This document shows positions 1-28,990 of a DNA stretch of 32,461 nt, in pieces. Position numbers and translations under genes: made by a program. The notes below the pieces were generated by a model. The model had not been told where the DNA came from. It saw nothing but the letters and a program-made list of their open reading frames with translations, and did not search any database. Each line of letters starts with the position of its first letter. Within the stretch, counting starts at the first letter, position 1. This DNA comes from Burkholderiales bacterium (lineage in GTDB: Bacteria; Pseudomonadota; Gammaproteobacteria; Burkholderiales; Methylophilaceae), in contig JAURKY010000007.1 of assembly GCA_030831475.1 (NCBI GenBank), forward strand, positions 1-32,461, in the 5' to 3' direction.

Positions 1-88
1 ACGCAGCTCCTGCTGAAGAAGCTCCAGCACAAGACGCAGCTCCTGCTGAAGAAGCTCCAGCACAAGACGCAGCTCCTGCTGAAGAAGA
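1..88 (+). repeat. 33-bp tandem repeat in the rpsP tail
   Basis: A 33-bp unit starts with GACGCAGCTCCTGCTGAAG and ends with GCTCCAGCACAA. It encodes [11 protein letters not shown]. One copy lacking its first base (1-32), one full copy (33-65) and a partial copy (66-88) are visible. The unit is identical base for base to the repeat in rplS at 1813-1932. Confidence 0.95.
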
Positions 89-104
89 GAAAAAAGACGA
101 GTAG
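1..104 (+). CDS. rpsP: 30S ribosomal protein S16, C-terminal tail only (5' end outside window)
   Basis: Only the last 33 complete codons are present, ending in TAG at 102-104. The visible peptide is a repeated [11 protein letters not shown] motif that finishes in EEEKKDE. No S16 core is visible. The identification rests on position, because rpsP directly precedes rimM-trmD-rplS in most proteobacteria, and on the rplS product further down carrying the same tail. S16 is an assembly protein of the small subunit and is usually about 80-90 residues without such a tail. Because the start lies outside the window, the full tail length is unknown. An unrelated upstream gene with the same repeat is possible but less likely. 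Confidence 0.75.
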   Translation, partial: AAPAEEAPAQDAAPAEEAPAQDAAPAEEEKKDE

Positions 105-127
105 TTTTTTTTCCAATCTTTAAAGAT

Positions 128-628
128 ATGGAAGAAAAAATTGTCATGGGAAAGATACTTGGCCCCCATGGAATTAAAGGATGGATTAAAATTCATCCCT
201 TTACGGAAAAAAAAGATAGCTTAATAGATCATAAGATCTTAATAGCCTCAAAGGATGAGAAATCATGGCAATCCTTTGAAGTTGAAAGTATGGATGTAGG
301 CGATAAGTTTATTCTAGCTAAGTTCAAAGGTGTTGATGATAGAAATACCGCTGAAAAGTTGAATAAATTTTTTATAGGCCTTGATAAATCGTCTTTACCT
401 AAACTAGATGAAAACAATTATTATTGGCATGAATTAATTGGCCTAGATGTAAAAAATAATGAGGGTATGCATTTTGGAAAAGTTGATTCCCTTATTGAAA
501 CAGGCGCAAATGATGTTTTGGTGGTTATGGGCGATAAAGAACACTTAATACCCTACATCAAACAAGTAATTTTAGAAGTCAATTTAGAAACGAATATGAT
601 TCGTGTGGATTGGCAGGATGACTACTAA
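128..628 (+). CDS. rimM: 16S rRNA processing / 30S maturation protein RimM
   Basis: This 166-residue protein matches RimM, which binds S19 and helps mature the 3' domain of the 30S subunit. The N-terminal RimM domain opens with MGKILGPHGIKGWIKI (residues 7-22), with the family GxHGxKG motif. A PRC-barrel-like C-terminal half follows from about residue 96 (YYWHELIGLDV) to the end. The length is normal for the family. The start ATG lies 23 bases after the rpsP stop, and the 3' end overlaps the trmD start by 11 bases, which suggests translational coupling inside the rpsP-rimM-trmD-rplS operon. Confidence 0.96.
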   Translation: MEEKIVMGKILGPHGIKGWIKIHPFTEKKDSLIDHKILIASKDEKSWQSFEVESMDVGDKFILAKFKGVDDRNTAEKLNKFFIGLDKSSLPKLDENNYYWHELIGLDVKNNEGMHFGKVDSLIETGANDVLVVMGDKEHLIPYIKQVILEVNLETNMIRVDWQDDY

Positions 629-1385
629 ATTTAAGTATAACTTTAACGTTATTAGTTTAATGCCAGAAATGTTTGACGCATTTGAACATTATGGTGTTGT
701 TGGTAGGGCATTTAAAGAAGGGTTAGTTAAATTAAATTTGATTAATCCCAGAGATTTTACGCAGGACACACACAGAACAGTTGATGATCGACCGTTTGGA
801 GGGGGTCCTGGAATGGTAATGACATTAGAGCCATTGATAAACTCTATTGAAAAAGCTAAAAGCTTATCATTATCAAAAAAGAATAAGGTGATTCATCTTT
901 CACCGCGTGGGCAATTGCTAACACAAAAAAAAATTGATGAATTACTTGAACTTGATTCGATAACCTTAATATCAAGTAGGTATGAGGGTGTTGATGAAAG
1001 ATTAAGTAATTGGTTTGATGAAGAATTATCCATCGGGGATTATGTCACCAGCGGTGGTGAATTGCCGGCGATGGTAGTAATTGATTCATTGATTAGACAG
1101 ATTCCTGGGGTCTTAAATGATTCAGAATCGGCTTCGCAGGACTCGTTTGTAAATGGTCTCTTAGATCATCCAAGTTATACGAGACCTGAAACGTATGAAG
1201 ATTTTAAGGTACCTGAGGATTTGCTGACAGGGGATCATGAAAAAATTAGGGTATGGCGATTAAAAGAATCGATCCGTTTAACATTGTTAAATCGCCCTGA
1301 ATTATTAGCCGAAAGGTTGTTGACGAAAGAGGAATCTCGGCTGCTCGATGAGGTAAAAAAAGAGCAGGAACAAGATACCTTATAA
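618..1385 (+). CDS. trmD: tRNA (guanine37-N1)-methyltransferase TrmD
   Basis: TrmD methylates G37 next to the anticodon of tRNAs reading CNN codons, using S-adenosylmethionine, and so prevents frameshifting. The sequence shows the family start [14 protein letters not shown], the [13 protein letters not shown] segment, the [11 protein letters not shown] segment and the trefoil-knot SAM-binding stretch [15 protein letters not shown]. The reading frame extends upstream to a GTG at 603. The ATG at 618 is preferred because it gives the normal length of 255 residues and begins just before the family-conserved part. It overlaps the rimM end by 11 bases. The C-terminal half carries the usual HPSYTRPE motif. 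Confidence 0.96.
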
Positions 1386-1401
1386 TAAAAAGGAACATAA
1401 A

Positions 1402-1944
1402 ATGGCAAATATTATTGAAACACTTGAAAAAGAAGAGATTGCTCGTTTAGGCAAAAAAATTCCTAAATTTTCAGCAGGCGATACTGTAAGCGTAGGTGTT
1501 AACGTGGTGGAAGGTAGTCGAAAAAGAGTTCAGGCATTTGAGGGTATTGTGATTAGCCGTAAAAATCGTGGTTTGAATTCATCTTTCATTGTAAGAAAAA
1601 TTTCATCAGGTGAGGGCGTTGAAAGAACCTTTCAATTGTACTCTCCTCTTATCGAAAGTATCGAGGTAAAACGTCGTGGTGATGTTAAACGAGCTAAATT
1701 ATTTTATCTACGAGATCTTTCAGGAAAATCTGCAAGAATTAAAGAGAGACTTAAGGCAAGACTGTCAGACAATGAGTTTGAAGAAATTCCAGAAGGTTAC
1801 GTGCCTTCTGAAGACGCAGCTCCTGCTGAAGAAGCTCCAGCACAAGACGCAGCTCCTGCTGAAGAAGCTCCAGCACAAGACGCAGCTCCTGCTGAAGAAG
1901 CTCCAGCACAAGACGCAGCTCCTGCTGAAGATGAGAATAAATAA
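1402..1944 (+). CDS. rplS: 50S ribosomal protein L19 with a repeat-rich C-terminal extension
   Basis: Residues 1 to about 118 are a standard L19 ([11 protein letters not shown] at the start, [46 protein letters not shown]). L19 sits at the 30S-50S interface. Family members normally stop near residue 115-120, but this one continues for about 60 residues of acidic Ala/Pro/Glu sequence made of three full and one partial [11 protein letters not shown] repeats, ending EDENK. The tail is predicted to be disordered. A good ribosome binding site, AAGGAAC, lies at 1390-1396, and the gene is followed by a strong terminator, so it closes the rpsP operon. Confidence 0.97.
1813..1935 (+). repeat. 33-bp tandem repeat in the rplS tail, same unit as in rpsP
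   Basis: Three full 33-bp units (1813-1845, 1846-1878, 1879-1911) and a partial fourth (from 1912) encode [11 protein letters not shown]. All copies are identical at synonymous positions, both to each other and to the rpsP copies about 1.7 kb upstream. That points to recent duplication or gene conversion. Confidence 0.95.
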
Positions 1945-1962
1945 TCTTATTTACTTACAATT

Positions 1963-1988
1963 AAAGCCCCGCTAGACGGGGCTTTTTT
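1963..1988 (+). terminator. Rho-independent terminator after rplS
   Basis: The stem AAAGCCCC / GGGGCTTT has a five-base loop (GCTAGA region) and is followed by a run of seven T. It ends the rpsP-rimM-trmD-rplS transcript 19 bases after the rplS stop. Confidence 0.9.
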
Positions 1989-2007
1989 TATTATGCTAAG
2001 CTAGATT

Positions 2008-7556: not shown

Positions 7557-9530
7557 ATGGCTAGACCTAAAAAAAATCCAGAAGATAAAAAACCCAAAAA
7601 AGTTAAAAAGGTAAAAAAATTAAGAGAGTTATATCTTAAAGATGCCGCCAATGACCCTGTAGAGGCAGAGAATAGGCGTGCACAACTTAAAGCTTTAATT
7701 ATCCTTGGCAAAGAGAGAGGTTATTTAACTTATGCTGAAATTAATGACCATCTTCCAGATGAAGTTTCCGACTCTGATCAGGTAGAAAATATTGTAGGCA
7801 TCATTAATGACATGGGCATTAGTGTTTATGAAGAAGCCCCGGATGCTGAATCACTTCTTATGTCAGATGCACCTGCACCTGTAACTGATGAAGAGGCGGC
7901 TGAAGAGGCTGAAGCGGCTCTTGCAACAGTTGATTCTGAATTCGGGCGTACCACTGATCCTGTAAGAATGTATATGCGTGAAATGGGTACGGTTGATCTT
8001 TTAACACGTGATGATGAGATTGAAATTGCTAAACGTATTGAAGATGGCCTCAAGCATATGGTTCAAGCCATTTCAGCTTGCCCGATTATCATTGATGACC
8101 TTATGACTATTAGTGAAAAAGTTAAAAAAGAAGAGATTGGGGTAGATGAATTTGTTGATGGTCTAATCGATGTTGAGGCAGAACAAGAACTTGCTAAAGT
8201 TGAGGCAGCTCTAGAAGAAGTTGATGAACCAGATGAGGATGAGGACGAGGATGAGGATGAGGATTCATCTGATAATGGTAAAGCTTCAGGTATGTCTGCT
8301 GAAGACCTTAAGCATTTAACTGAAGAAGTCCTCTCACGTTTTAACAAAATTAAACGGGCGCATAAAAAATTAGACGATCTTCGTAAACAAAAAAAATGGG
8401 TTGATGATAAAGATTATGCAAAACACCAAGATTTAATCCTCAAAGAACTTTTTAACTTTAGATTCTCGTCTAAGTTTGTTGAAATTCTGTGCGATAAAGT
8501 TAGGGTATTTGTTGCTAAGGTCAGAACACATGAACGTGCCATTATGGACTTTTGTGTTGAGCAGGCAAGAATGCCAAGAACACATTTTATTAAAAGTTTT
8601 CCAGGTAATGAAACTAACCTCAAATGGCTCAAAGAAGAGCTGAAGCTTGATAAAGCTTATATCGAAAATCTCAAAAGACTTAAACACTCTATTTTTGATC
8701 AGCAAAATAAATTGATTGAACTGGAAGAAGAAGCGGGTATTCCGATTAAAAATTTTAAAGAGATCAATCGTCAGATGACTACAGGCGAGGCTCGAGCTCG
8801 ACGAGCAAAACGTGAGATGATTGAGGCTAACTTAAGGCTCGTAATTTCGATAGCAAAAAAATATACCAATCGTGGATTACAATTTTTGGATCTGATTCAA
8901 GAGGGCAATATTGGCTTGATGAAGGCGGTGGATAAGTTTGAATATCGTCGAGGTTATAAATTTTCAACCTATGCAACTTGGTGGATTCGACAAGCGATTA
9001 CTCGCTCTATTGCTGATCAAGCAAGAACTATTCGAATTCCAGTGCATATGATTGAAACCATCAATAAGATGAATCGTATTTCAAGACAAATCTTACAAGC
9101 TACAGGAGAGGAACCCGAGCCAGCAGTACTTGCTGAAAAAATGGGAATGCCAGAGGATAAAATTAGAAAGATTTTAAAAATTTCTAAAGAGCCTATTTCG
9201 ATGGAAACTCCTATTGGCGATGATGAAGATTCACATTTAGGTGATTTCATCGAGGATGTAGGTACGCTTACTCCTGATGATGCTGCCGTGTATACCAGCT
9301 TGAAATCAGTGACCTCTGAAATATTAGAGGGCTTAACACCAAGAGAAGCCAAAGTGCTACGTATGCGATTTGGCATTGAGATGAATACAGACCATACCCT
9401 TGAAGAAGTAGGTAAACAGTTTGATGTGACTCGTGAGCGAATAAGACAAATTGAAGCTAAGGCCTTAAGAAAATTGAGACATCCTACTCGCTCAGAGAGA
9501 CTTAGAAGTTTTTTAGAAAATAAAGATTAA
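7557..9530 (+). CDS. rpoD: RNA polymerase sigma factor RpoD (sigma-70)
   Basis: The housekeeping sigma factor has 657 residues. Region 1.1 lies at about 40-95, region 1.2 at about 135-165 ([16 protein letters not shown]), and a non-conserved insertion carries a run of alternating Glu/Asp ([11 protein letters not shown], about residues 228-238). Regions 2.1-2.4 include [38 protein letters not shown] and [14 protein letters not shown]. Region 3 follows, and region 4 ends with [20 protein letters not shown]. The start is supported by AGAGGA at 7547-7552. The N-terminus is unusually lysine-rich ([17 protein letters not shown]). Together with rpsU and dnaG it completes the macromolecular synthesis operon. 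Confidence 0.98.
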
Positions 9531-15583: not shown

Positions 15584-15754
15584 ATGGCAAAAATACTTGT
15601 TGCTTTTTTAATGTCACTTGTTTTATTTGGTTGCAATAATAATTCATCTAATGATGTTTCAACTGCAGATTCTGAACCAGCTCAAGAAGCTCCAGTAGAA
15701 GAAGCTCCAGTAGAAGAAGCTCCAGTAGAAGAAGCTCCAGCTGATACTGAATAA
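15584..15754 (+). CDS. Small lipoprotein with EAPVE repeats
   Basis: The 56-residue product has a lipoprotein signal with lipobox LVLFG-C17, then a polar linker (NNNSSNDVSTADSEPAQ) and a tail of EAPVE repeats ending EAPADTE. The lipobox Cys at position 17 and the MxKIL-type start match the other two small lipoproteins nearby (12169, 17174), but the GGNGGFNP motif is missing. AAGGGAAAA precedes the ATG. It has its own promoter and terminator. Function unknown; the acidic, proline-rich tail is likely extended. Confidence 0.85.
   Translation: MAKILVAFLMSLVLFGCNNNSSNDVSTADSEPAQEAPVEEAPVEEAPVEEAPADTE
15686..15740 (+). repeat. 15-bp tandem repeat in the lipoprotein tail
   Basis: Three full units of GAAGCTCCAGTAGAA (15686-15700, 15701-15715, 15716-15730) and a ten-base partial fourth encode EAPVE. 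The core GAAGAAGCTCCAG is also the core of the 33-bp repeat in rpsP and rplS. Confidence 0.9.
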
Positions 15755-18867: not shown

Positions 18868-18897
18868 TTGTAATTGAGAATGATTCTCATTTATAAT
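18868..18897 (+). promoter_or_regulatory. Promoter of the porin operon
   Basis: TTGTAA at 18868-18873 and a perfect TATAAT at 18892-18897 are 18 bases apart. The spacer is entirely filled by the first Fur box, and the second Fur box covers the expected start near 18904. Confidence 0.7.
18871..18893. promoter_or_regulatory. Fur box 1
   Basis: A 23-base unit with the perfect palindrome TGAGAATGATTCTCA (18875-18889) matches the iron-responsive Fur consensus GATAATGATTATCATT at nearly all positions. It lies in the promoter spacer. Confidence 0.9.
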
Positions 18898-18916
18898 TGA
18901 GAATGATTCTCATTTA
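18894..18916. promoter_or_regulatory. Fur box 2
   Basis: An exact second copy of the 23-base unit follows directly, with its palindrome at 18898-18912. The tandem, zero-gap arrangement places two Fur dimers in register over the -10 box and start. Confidence 0.9.
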
Positions 18917-18930
18917 TATTTAGGATTTTA

Positions 18931-20139
18931 ATGATGTTAAGACAATGGACCCCACTTTTTGCGATGCTGTTTATTTTTTCTGCAAGTGCAAACACACCTA
19001 GCAATGAAGAGATCTATCAAATGATGATGGAATTAAAAAAAGAAATTGCAGATCTTCGAGCTGAAAATAAAAAATTAAAAGAATCAGTTGAGGTGGTTGA
19101 AGAATCTGTGGATGAGGTTGTTATAGCTACGGATGAAGCCATCAAAGAACAAGCTAAGATTGCAAGCCGAACATCCTTTGGGGGTTATGGTGAGTTGCAT
19201 GGCAATTGGTTAGATGATCAACATGGCAGTGCTGACAAAGATGAAATTGATTTACATCGTTTTGTTCTTGAATTCAGACACGAGTTTAGTGATAACTTAA
19301 GATTTGTATCTGAGGTTGAATATGAGCATGGTGTTGCAGGTGAGGGACAGAATGGTGAGGTCGAGATTGAACAGGCATACATTCAATATGACTTAAATAA
19401 TCAATATTCAATGACAGGTGGTGTGTTTATCATTCCTGTAGGGATACTTAATGAAACACATGAACCTGGAACTTTTTATGGTGTAGAAAGAAATAATGTA
19501 GAGACTAAAATTATACCAACCACATGGTGGGAAGGCGGCGCCATGCTATCAGCTAAGTACGATAGTGGTATTAGTTATGATCTAGCAGTCTCTTCAGGCC
19601 TTAAAGCTTCTGCAGCGGATTATTTACCAAGGGATGCACGGCAAAAAGTGAGTGAAGCTTCAGCCAAAAGCCCATCATTGACTGGCCGAATTAAATATAC
19701 TGGCATTCCTGGTTTAGAAATTGCTGGATCTATAAATCATCAAGTTGATTACAGTCAGGACACCTTGAGTACAGTTGATGATGCGACTTTATATGAAGCT
19801 CATGCCATTTTACAAAGAGGAAATTTTGGTTTTAAAGCTATGTATGCGGAGTGGGATATCCAAGGTAGTGGCCCCAGGTCGGTTGGTGCCGACAGACAGC
19901 TTGGTTGGTTTGTAGAGCCCTCTTATAGAATTCATGATGTTGGTTTTTTTACCAGGTATAGCCTTTATGACAACAAAGCCAACTCCTCGTCAGATACAGA
20001 GGTTAAACAATGGGATATCGGTGTGAATTGGTGGATTCATAAAGATGTTGTTGTAAAACTAGATTATCAAGACCAGTCAACAGCTTCAGGTATCACTGAG
20101 CTGGATGGCATTAACGCTGGACTAGGATACGCTTTTTAG
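18931..20139 (+). CDS. Outer-membrane porin with N-terminal coiled coil (Fur-regulated)
   Basis: The 402-residue protein has a signal peptide (cut after SASA, about residue 20), a coiled coil at about 25-66 (EEIYQMMMELKKEIADLRAENKKLKESV), and a beta barrel from about 82 (SFGGYGELHGNW) to the terminal Phe (GINAGLGYAF). It resembles the phosphate-selective porin O/P superfamily, whose members often have such a coiled coil and form trimers. The twin Fur boxes point to iron limitation. No iron ligand motif is evident. It heads an operon with a flavoprotein and a PepSY protein, which argues for a role in iron entry. The exact solute is unknown. Confidence 0.82.
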   Translation: MMLRQWTPLFAMLFIFSASANTPSNEEIYQMMMELKKEIADLRAENKKLKESVEVVEESVDEVVIATDEAIKEQAKIASRTSFGGYGELHGNWLDDQHGSADKDEIDLHRFVLEFRHEFSDNLRFVSEVEYEHGVAGEGQNGEVEIEQAYIQYDLNNQYSMTGGVFIIPVGILNETHEPGTFYGVERNNVETKIIPTTWWEGGAMLSAKYDSGISYDLAVSSGLKASAADYLPRDARQKVSEASAKSPSLTGRIKYTGIPGLEIAGSINHQVDYSQDTLSTVDDATLYEAHAILQRGNFGFKAMYAEWDIQGSGPRSVGADRQLGWFVEPSYRIHDVGFFTRYSLYDNKANSSSDTEVKQWDIGVNWWIHKDVVVKLDYQDQSTASGITELDGINAGLGYAF

Positions 20140-27406: not shown

Positions 27407-28990
27407 ATGAAACAACTTAATCAACAAGATATTCAAAGATTGATGATGATGCACCAGCAAGGTCAGCATGATAGCGTTATTGAAGTTGCTGAGAAATTAA
27501 TTATAGATTTCCCAAAAGAATTTATTCTTTTTAATATTTTAGGGGTGAGCCATGAAAAGAAGGGAGATCTTGAAAAAGCATCTATCGCTTATAAGAAGGC
27601 TTTAAAAATTAACCCTAATATCCCAGAATTACAATTTAATTTGGGTGCCATTTTGTATGCTCAAAATCATTATCAAGAGTCTATAAAGTATTATCAAAAA
27701 GCCATTAGTTTAAAGGCAGATTTTGTTGAGGCTTTTTTTAACCTTGGCATCACCTATCAAAGTTTAGGCGAATTTGTTAAAGCCATCAGCGCTTATGAAC
27801 AAGCACTCAATATACAACCTGGTTTTTATGAGGCATTGACTAATCTTGGAACAATCAAGCAGTTGCAAGGAGACCTTGATGATGCGATTAAATGTTTTGA
27901 GCAATCTCTAGCTATTTTTGATGATGCCCGAGGGCATTATAATTTGGCGGGTGCATTTCGAAATCAGGGTAATTTAAAACTTGCCATTGATCATTTTAAA
28001 AAAGCAGTTGAAAAGGGTTCGAATGAACCTGATTTTTATTCTGATCTTGGTGATGCTCTATGGCATGACGGACAGATTAAAGAGGCGAATGATTTTTTAA
28101 GATTAGCTGTTCAAAAAAATCCGCAACACCCAAGAGCAAATTATCAATTAGCCATCTTTTTGTATGACAACGAAGCATACGAGGAGGCGATTGAACACTT
28201 TAAAACTTCACAGCTTGGCGATTGGCAAGAGCGAGTTTTATATTGCCTCTATAAATTAAAAAAATTTGATGTTTTTGATGAGCAACTCAAATCTGCAATT
28301 AAGATTAGGAACTTATCACCTTTTTTAGCGACGCTATCCACTCACTATTCCATTAATTTTAACAAAGATGATCCTTATAAATTTTGTCCAGAGCCCTTGA
28401 GGTTTGTTTGTCATGAGAAAATTCCTGAACTCGTCACAGACAATGGCAAGCTTGTTCATGAGCTCCTGCATGATATTAAGACTGCAGATATATCAGAGCG
28501 AAAACAAAGCCGATTAAGCTATGGTGTTCAATCATCAGGTAACTTGTTTAAGCGTAAAGAATCATCTTTTATGGCACTTGCCGAAGCTTTAAAAAAAATG
28601 ATCAAAAACTACCATCAGCGATTTGCGAATGAGCGTTGTGAATTTATTCAATCTTTTCCAAAAAAAATTGAATTTAGCAGTTCGTGGTTTGTAAGGATGC
28701 AAAAAGGGGGACACTTAAGTTCTCATATTCACGAGGATGGTTGGATCAGTGGGGCAGTTTATTTATCTATACCTAATTCAAATAAAGAATCAAATGAGGG
28801 TGCCATTGAATTGAGTACCGATGGCGATGGGTATCCTAGAATGCATGATCAATTCCCAACGCAGACGATTTTACCCGAAGCGGGTGATGTGATATTTTTT
28901 CCATCCTCAGTCTTTCATCGTACCATCCCCTTTAATTCAGATGCTGAGCGCGTTTGTATTGCATTTGATCTAAAGCCCGAGCCTAGGTAG
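27407..28990 (+). CDS. TPR repeat protein with C-terminal 2-oxoglutarate/Fe(II) dioxygenase-like domain
   Basis: The 527-residue protein has about eight TPR units at 1-270 (NILGVSHEKKGDLEKASIAYKKALKINPNIP is typical), a spacer, and a C-terminal 2OG-Fe(II) oxygenase-like domain from about 425. Likely iron ligands are H440 or H442 and D444 in HIHEDGW and H504 in SSVFHRTIPF, with R515 for 2-oxoglutarate. There is no signal peptide, so it is cytoplasmic. The TPR part could hold a protein substrate for hydroxylation. The substrate is unknown. No Shine-Dalgarno sequence precedes the ATG. The 3' end overlaps the convergent YihY gene by eight bases. Confidence 0.85.
   Translation: MKQLNQQDIQRLMMMHQQGQHDSVIEVAEKLIIDFPKEFILFNILGVSHEKKGDLEKASIAYKKALKINPNIPELQFNLGAILYAQNHYQESIKYYQKAISLKADFVEAFFNLGITYQSLGEFVKAISAYEQALNIQPGFYEALTNLGTIKQLQGDLDDAIKCFEQSLAIFDDARGHYNLAGAFRNQGNLKLAIDHFKKAVEKGSNEPDFYSDLGDALWHDGQIKEANDFLRLAVQKNPQHPRANYQLAIFLYDNEAYEEAIEHFKTSQLGDWQERVLYCLYKLKKFDVFDEQLKSAIKIRNLSPFLATLSTHYSINFNKDDPYKFCPEPLRFVCHEKIPELVTDNGKLVHELLHDIKTADISERKQSRLSYGVQSSGNLFKRKESSFMALAEALKKMIKNYHQRFANERCEFIQSFPKKIEFSSSWFVRMQKGGHLSSHIHEDGWISGAVYLSIPNSNKESNEGAIELSTDGDGYPRMHDQFPTQTILPEAGDVIFFPSSVFHRTIPFNSDAERVCIAFDLKPEPR

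Follow-up and report, generated by a model that had tools for sequence, protein, structure and literature searches.

Two ribosomal protein genes at the beginning of the analysed contig, which comes from an aquatic methylotroph with a small genome, namely rplS and, very likely, rpsP, terminate in tandem copies of one and the same 33-bp unit, and the two arrays are identical over 87 nt. We consider it probable that this pattern originated from disordered acidic tails of bS16 and bL19 grown by replication slippage, together with one copying event between the genes, which lie 1.7 kb apart. The sharing of an array by S16 and L19 is a new and unusual variation, the tails themselves being of a known kind. 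The proteins of the ribosome are generally regarded as frozen; in the very small genomes considered here, two of them retain long acidic tails that change fast, and the tails of the genus make up a natural series for asking what such extensions do.

Shared 33-bp arrays and the gene preceding rimM

The analysed stretch of DNA (hereafter, the window), 32,461 bases long, makes up an entire contig in an assembly of 707 kb that is 59% complete. Tandem Repeats Finder detected two arrays of a 33-bp unit in it, at positions 1-87 (2.6 copies, score 174) and 1811-1931 (3.7 copies, score 242), both with 100% matches and no indels. The features of the region are as follows:

1..104, + strand: 3' end of the gene preceding rimM (presumably rpsP); last 34 codons, the first of them truncated at the contig edge, followed by a TAG stop (102-104); S16 core absent from the assembly
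1-87, + strand: array 1; partial unit 1-32, unit 33-65, partial unit 66-87, then the unique end EKKDE
128..628, + strand: rimM (Pfam RimM and PRC_RimM)
618..1385, + strand: trmD (Pfam tRNA_m1G_MT); open reading frame, its start (ATG 618) picked by eye
1402..1944, + strand: rplS, encoding ribosomal protein L19 of 180 aa, about 60 of them in a C-terminal extension; open reading frame (Pfam Ribosomal_L19, E 4.8e-46, residues 4-116)
1811..1931, + strand: array 2 in rplS; units 1813-1845, 1846-1878 and 1879-1911, partial copy to 1931
1963..1989, + strand: probable intrinsic terminator 3' of rplS (AGCCCCG...CGGGGCT followed by a T run), recognised by eye

Each unit encodes an 11-residue peptide common to both arrays. 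The longest exact match between the arrays spans 87 nt with every synonymous site there included, and beyond it the sequences part into EKKDE-stop on the side of array 1 vs DENK-stop on the side of array 2. Thus, the original prediction that rplS and the gene preceding rimM carry tandem copies of one 33-bp unit, identical even at synonymous sites, was borne out. The exact unit matched 4 of 195 loci, all four from the genome of the window, and produced 0 matches in viral contigs; when other copies of the array were sought in the same genome, a weaker, 81% match alone came up, located in a lipoprotein-like open reading frame at 15.7 kb. This frame (window 15584-15754, 56 residues, without a Pfam match) contains EEAPV-type repeats encoded by a perfect 15-bp unit in 3.8 copies.

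Several other features of the window were observed in passing. A GATGAG hexamer array (8232-8264, 5.5 copies, 92% matches) lies within an rpoD-like gene, in the stretch matching the sigma-70 non-essential region. Two perfect 23-bp copies of TAATTGAGAATGATTCTCATTTA are found at 18871-18918, directly 5' of a porin gene (18931-20139, Pfam Porin_O_P/Porin_4), and this palindrome presumably resembles a doubled Fur box. At 27407-28990, TPR repeats are fused to a putative 2OG-Fe(II) oxygenase domain.

Array 1 lies on the contig edge (contig base 1), and a domain search found no S16 domain in the 707-kb, 59% complete assembly of the window; the TAG stop is separated from the rimM start by 23 bases. 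S16 was found in 95 of the 100 relatives searched and L19 in 94. In 22 of the 25 genus relatives possessing both rpsP and rplS the two genes share a contig and a strand and are roughly 2 kb apart, and in the remaining three (G002, G020, G024) they reside on separate contigs. G020 is the nearest relative, with 71% DNA identity across this region. Its rimM-trmD-rplS contig starts inside the S16 array, another of its contigs ends inside the S16 array after the rpsP core, and the contig of the window starts like the former. Considering the gene order in relatives, the gene preceding rimM is very likely rpsP, and its visible end an S16 tail, the core of the gene itself being absent from the assembly. 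The earlier assignment of this gene to rpsP is therefore supported by position, but not by a domain match. The rpsP and rimM contigs of G020 (L053, 1-137, and L077, 1-130; lengths by eye) both end in one S16 array, and therefore the assembly has lost the true copy number of this array.

Tails of S16 and L19 in the genus and the family

Comparison of rpsP and rplS of the relatives revealed tails throughout the genus, but an array shared by the two genes in the window only (n = 21). All 26 S16 sequences of the genus are extended past the core-end motif, by 52-182 aa in 25 of them and by 29 aa in G002; contig ends cut the tails of G002, G012, G020 and G024, and 100 N lie inside those of G007 and G021. 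L19 is extended by at least 35 aa past the core in 23 of the 27 genomes (window counted), with runs of N in the tails of G024 and G025; outside these 23, L19 of G009, G010 and G029 is cut by a contig end, and that of G014 stops at the core. The S16 tails of G014 and G030 (L047, L060) are shifted in frame vs their relatives and are basic or Q-rich rather than acidic, owing to either sequencing indels or real changes.

A tree (FastTree, four joined proteins, without support values and used for outline only) includes 29 further genomes of the family, G055, where neither gene was found, being outside it. In these 29 genomes, the S16 extension amounts to at least 79 aa in 17 and to 12-15 aa in 12, and the L19 extension exceeds 20 aa in G043 alone (32 aa), a genome adjoining the genus. 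The L19 tail looks like a recent invention of the genus of the window and its sister; the S16 tail in Methylophilaceae is wider and patchy. S16 tails also occur in named Methylotenera metagenome-assembled genomes (MAGs). Among the best 80 of 220 TrmD matches, named Methylophilaceae or Methylotenera MAGs showed 60-62% TrmD identity, the others were bacteria further removed, and none of the loci could be placed in the genus of the window. The wider survey of S16 and L19 left 26 S16 rows and 4 L19 rows unparsed, the S16 ends among them being short.

The net charge of the two tails of the window is -16 and -10, in agreement with the acidic low-complexity tails claimed originally; over the 14 tails of seven tabulated genomes it ranges from -4 to -26. 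The L19 tail of the window consists of A (0.33), E (0.22), P (0.17) and D (0.09), so that A and E together make up 55% of it, and 62% of the visible S16 end. The units themselves differ between genes and genomes. In S16 they read EEAAPA in G001, G003 and G016 and EEAAAPA in G006, and L19 of the same four genomes has one common unit type, unlike their S16 units; G019 and G023 combine APKEE types in S16 vs the EDKVETEAKVD type in L19. Units nearly identical inside an array are common in the genus, and both the sequence and the length of the unit vary from genome to genome, the acidic, mostly A/E/P-rich make-up being retained. Such a combination of changing units and constant acidity suggests that slippage shapes the tails and that selection, if any, acts on their bulk properties.

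Origin of the shared array

The longest exact match between S16 and L19 tails was compared within and between genomes. In the 21 same-genome pairs it reached 87 nt in the window, 35 in G018, 19 in G004 and at most 15 in the other 18 (median without the window 10 nt, n = 20), vs a median of 9 nt and a maximum of 85, followed by 35, in 577 cross-genome pairs. Thus, the exact identity seen within the genome of the window is longer than any found between genomes, one of the 577 pairs coming close with 85 nt; this pair is formed by S16 of G030 and L19 of G007 and has an 18-bp unit. S16 of G002 and L19 of G009, G010 and G029, too short because contig ends cut them, were excluded from the comparison, and no pair was formed for G014 (L19 unparsed, with a stop directly after the core), G025 (without S16) and G012 (without L19). 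Tails containing N (G007, G021, G024, G025) were kept, N never being scored as a match, and the S16 tails of G014 and G030 were taken in their frameshifted form, G030 being one of the 21 pairs.

Matches of at least 24 nt occurred in 6 of the 577 cross-genome pairs; their period is 15 or 18 bp in five, and the sixth, of 25 nt, has none. The two same-genome pairs with such matches show a 33-bp period in the window and a 27-bp period in G018. The periods were compared once the data had been seen. Short units coincide between genomes, and no coincidence of long ones was seen in the 577 cross pairs. In G018, the 27-bp unit that Tandem Repeats Finder assigns to the L19 array also occurs once, complete, in S16, with 35 nt matching exactly; both genes of this locus (L051) lie on one long contig distant from its edges, with the L19 array at 2749-2818. 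This second, weaker case supports exchange within the genus, not the contig-edge copy of the window.

When the pairing of S16 and L19 was shuffled, the summed log match length gave P 0.0007 genus-wide and 0.008 within subclades (0.011 genus-wide without the window, G000), and the count of pairs with a match of at least 30 nt gave P 0.018 genus-wide and 0.20 within subclades. Fisher's P for a common unit of at least 30 bp was 0.035, at a threshold set after seeing the data and with pairs that are not independent. Chance agreement of all codons over an 11-codon unit, given the peptide, was estimated at about 4e-4 from the codon usage of the tails and at 7e-5 from that of five window genes; shared codon habits inside a genome also raise same-genome similarity, and both the shuffles and the codon estimates leave that contribution in. 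The signal of same-genome sharing is real, and it derives from one strong case, that of the window, and one weak, that of G018.

With 87 nt vs a cross-pair median of 9, the spread of the repeat between the two genes, as proposed originally, is likely. The accompanying idea of ongoing homogenisation fared differently: an array is shared in one genome of 21 and a single unit in one more (G018), and in the six one-contig genomes of the genus (G001, G003, G006, G008, G016, G019) the S16 and L19 units differ and have at most 14 nt in common. Genus-wide ongoing homogenisation was rejected because of these one-contig genomes. The S16 unit of G020 (11 aa, 33 bp) and its L19 unit (10 aa, 30 bp) resemble each other without being equal, with 80% identity over the best 60 nt; one conversion would equalise such units.

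In the scenario we favour, both arrays would encode acidic low-complexity tails of bS16 and bL19 that are long and probably disordered and that would lengthen and shorten via replication slippage or unequal exchange inside each array. At least one whole unit was probably copied between the genes over 1.7 kb by non-reciprocal, gene conversion-like recombination, presumably helped by pre-existing similarity between the arrays, and both arrays would have expanded afterwards. The direction of copying is hardly indicated by local alignment, as the 33-bp unit scored barely higher on the best L19 (123, G006) than on the best S16 (115, G015); the QD step of the unit occurs in L19 of G001, G003, G006 and G016, and its 11-residue length in S16 of G020. 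Against copying stand the single clear case in 21 genomes and the 85-nt cross-genome match, according to which repeats can come to agree in the absence of same-genome exchange. The decisive S16 half of the evidence is also the least secure, because the array is on the contig edge and the rpsP core is absent.

It is this edge that lends weight to an assembly artefact, in which the rplS array was joined to the rimM-side contig and the true rpsP array shares a short stretch only; we regard this as unlikely, though a chance to be reckoned with. The S16 array begins at contig base 1, ten drafts of the genus break or hold N at the tails (G002, G007, G009, G010, G012, G020, G021, G024, G025, G029), the runs of 100 to 278 N being presumably scaffold gaps, and the rpsP and rimM contigs of G020 both end inside one S16 array. 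Nevertheless, the bases from the array to rimM are unique, and the reads joining them should contain one or more assembler words from the repeat together with unique bases. Since a wrong join needs a repeat word and the unique end in the same reads, at least a partial match would be real, and an assembler word longer than about 54 bases would mean that a full unit is truly present. Furthermore, the G020 contig starting in the S16 array does so with S16's own unit, distinct from the L19 unit of that genome. Because ten genus drafts break or carry N there, array copy numbers in both genes are unreliable, and, as a practical warning, rpsP and rplS are genes within which such arrays cause draft assemblies to break.

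Independent origin, with A/E/P tails of biased codons, which have few possible spellings, drifting to one unit in both genes, appears distinctly less probable still. In its favour are the 85 nt of an 18-bp unit shared by S16 of G030 and L19 of G007, and the lipoprotein-like frame at 15584-15754 carries an EEAPV array of its own; but with the same peptide given, agreement in all codons of an 11-codon unit has a probability of about 4e-4 or less, and the matches of at least 24 nt in the 577 cross pairs hold no shared repeat period above 18 bp. Selection for matched tails, by which S16 and L19 would keep one peptide for binding a common partner, is hardly credible. The peptide is indeed identical in the genome of the window, and the tails are acidic in seven other tabulated genomes; however, 20 of the 21 genomes lack an array common to both genes, and selection at the peptide level leaves the synonymous identity unexplained. 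Very improbable, too, is the bolder proposal that a single module encoding a disordered tail is passed from one ribosomal protein gene of the operon to another, so that both subunits display one peptide recognised by, or repelling, one partner. Returning to slippage with one copying event, the tails would be situated on the ribosome surface, where their value probably lies in bulk charge and flexibility, or mere tolerance, and not in the exact sequence; bulk charge or tolerated filler is the most likely putative role.

Comparison with known ribosomal protein tails

In AlphaFold2 modelling of the window L19 (28 sequences), pLDDT was 69.8 overall, with block means between 81 and 93 up to residue 90 and between 45 and 59 for residues 91-180; in the latter part the sole assigned structure is a short helix at 99-103, and the tail has no secondary structure. 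The low confidence from residue 91 on covers the last 26 residues of the core, and no aligned relative has a tail. The tail of L19 may thus be disordered, although the evidence from the model is weak because the low pLDDT starts inside the core and the alignment holds no tailed relative.

The most often solved lengths are 82 aa for S16 and 115 aa for L19, which we take to be those of E. coli, and longer chains of both proteins are present in the PDB: bS16 9t0z_P (137 aa), C. acnes bS16 8crx_P (147 aa) and L19 1nkw_N (166 aa). According to phmmer, the S16 tail of G003 aligns into 9t0z_P, and the window L19 aligns into 1nkw_N past the core, to residue 157. As in these three chains, the extension in the window follows a normal core, which is seen for L19 (core 4-116, tail to 180), S16 being known from its tail. 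Extensions of the three chains are not known as tandem DNA repeats, unlike those of the window, and the accessible part of the C. acnes ribosome paper (PMC10085706) does not report S16-L19 sharing for them. According to the same part of this source, the bS16 extension of C. acnes comprises 65 residues and partly binds uS4, with a suggested role near the mRNA entry, and its C-terminus has no density (PMC10085706).

Closer to the window, the MAGs of Methylotenera oryzisoli (L116) and Methylotenera sp. (L118) likewise have S16 with an A/K/E-rich extension of 95-97 aa; unlike in the window, these are not perfect arrays, as judged by eye, and their L19 has no extension above 25 aa.

In titles and the beginnings of abstracts among the matches listed from the open-licence literature on such tails, on repeat exchange between genes and on Methylophilaceae, no description of a repeat shared by S16 and L19 was found. 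The tails as such belong to a described class. The accessible part of PMC6821194 describes A/E-rich C-terminal low-complexity regions on bacterial S16, L19, L3, L10 and others, ribosomal low-complexity regions being mostly C-terminal; it counts S16 as one of three proteins having over 100 low-complexity orthologues (A/E-rich in 157 of 187) and L19 as one of those with at least 20 (24 of 32), and makes a case that these regions lie at the surface and engage in new interactions. The claim that such tails are absent from normal S16 and L19 is therefore not supported, given the tails throughout the genus, those of S16 in 17 of the 29 other family members, the longer chains in the PDB and the A/E-rich tails reported across bacteria in that part of PMC6821194. 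The L19 tail of the window is of low complexity as judged on its composition, not by the filter of PMC6821194, and both window tails, with 55% and 62%, fall below the A/E subclass as defined there (more than 70% A plus E). As far as the accessible part of that source goes, the window resembles the tails described in it in the proteins concerned (S16 and L19), the C-terminal site and the prominence of alanine and glutamate, and differs from them in being proline-rich, in its perfect tandem DNA arrays and in a unit common to two genes (PMC6821194).
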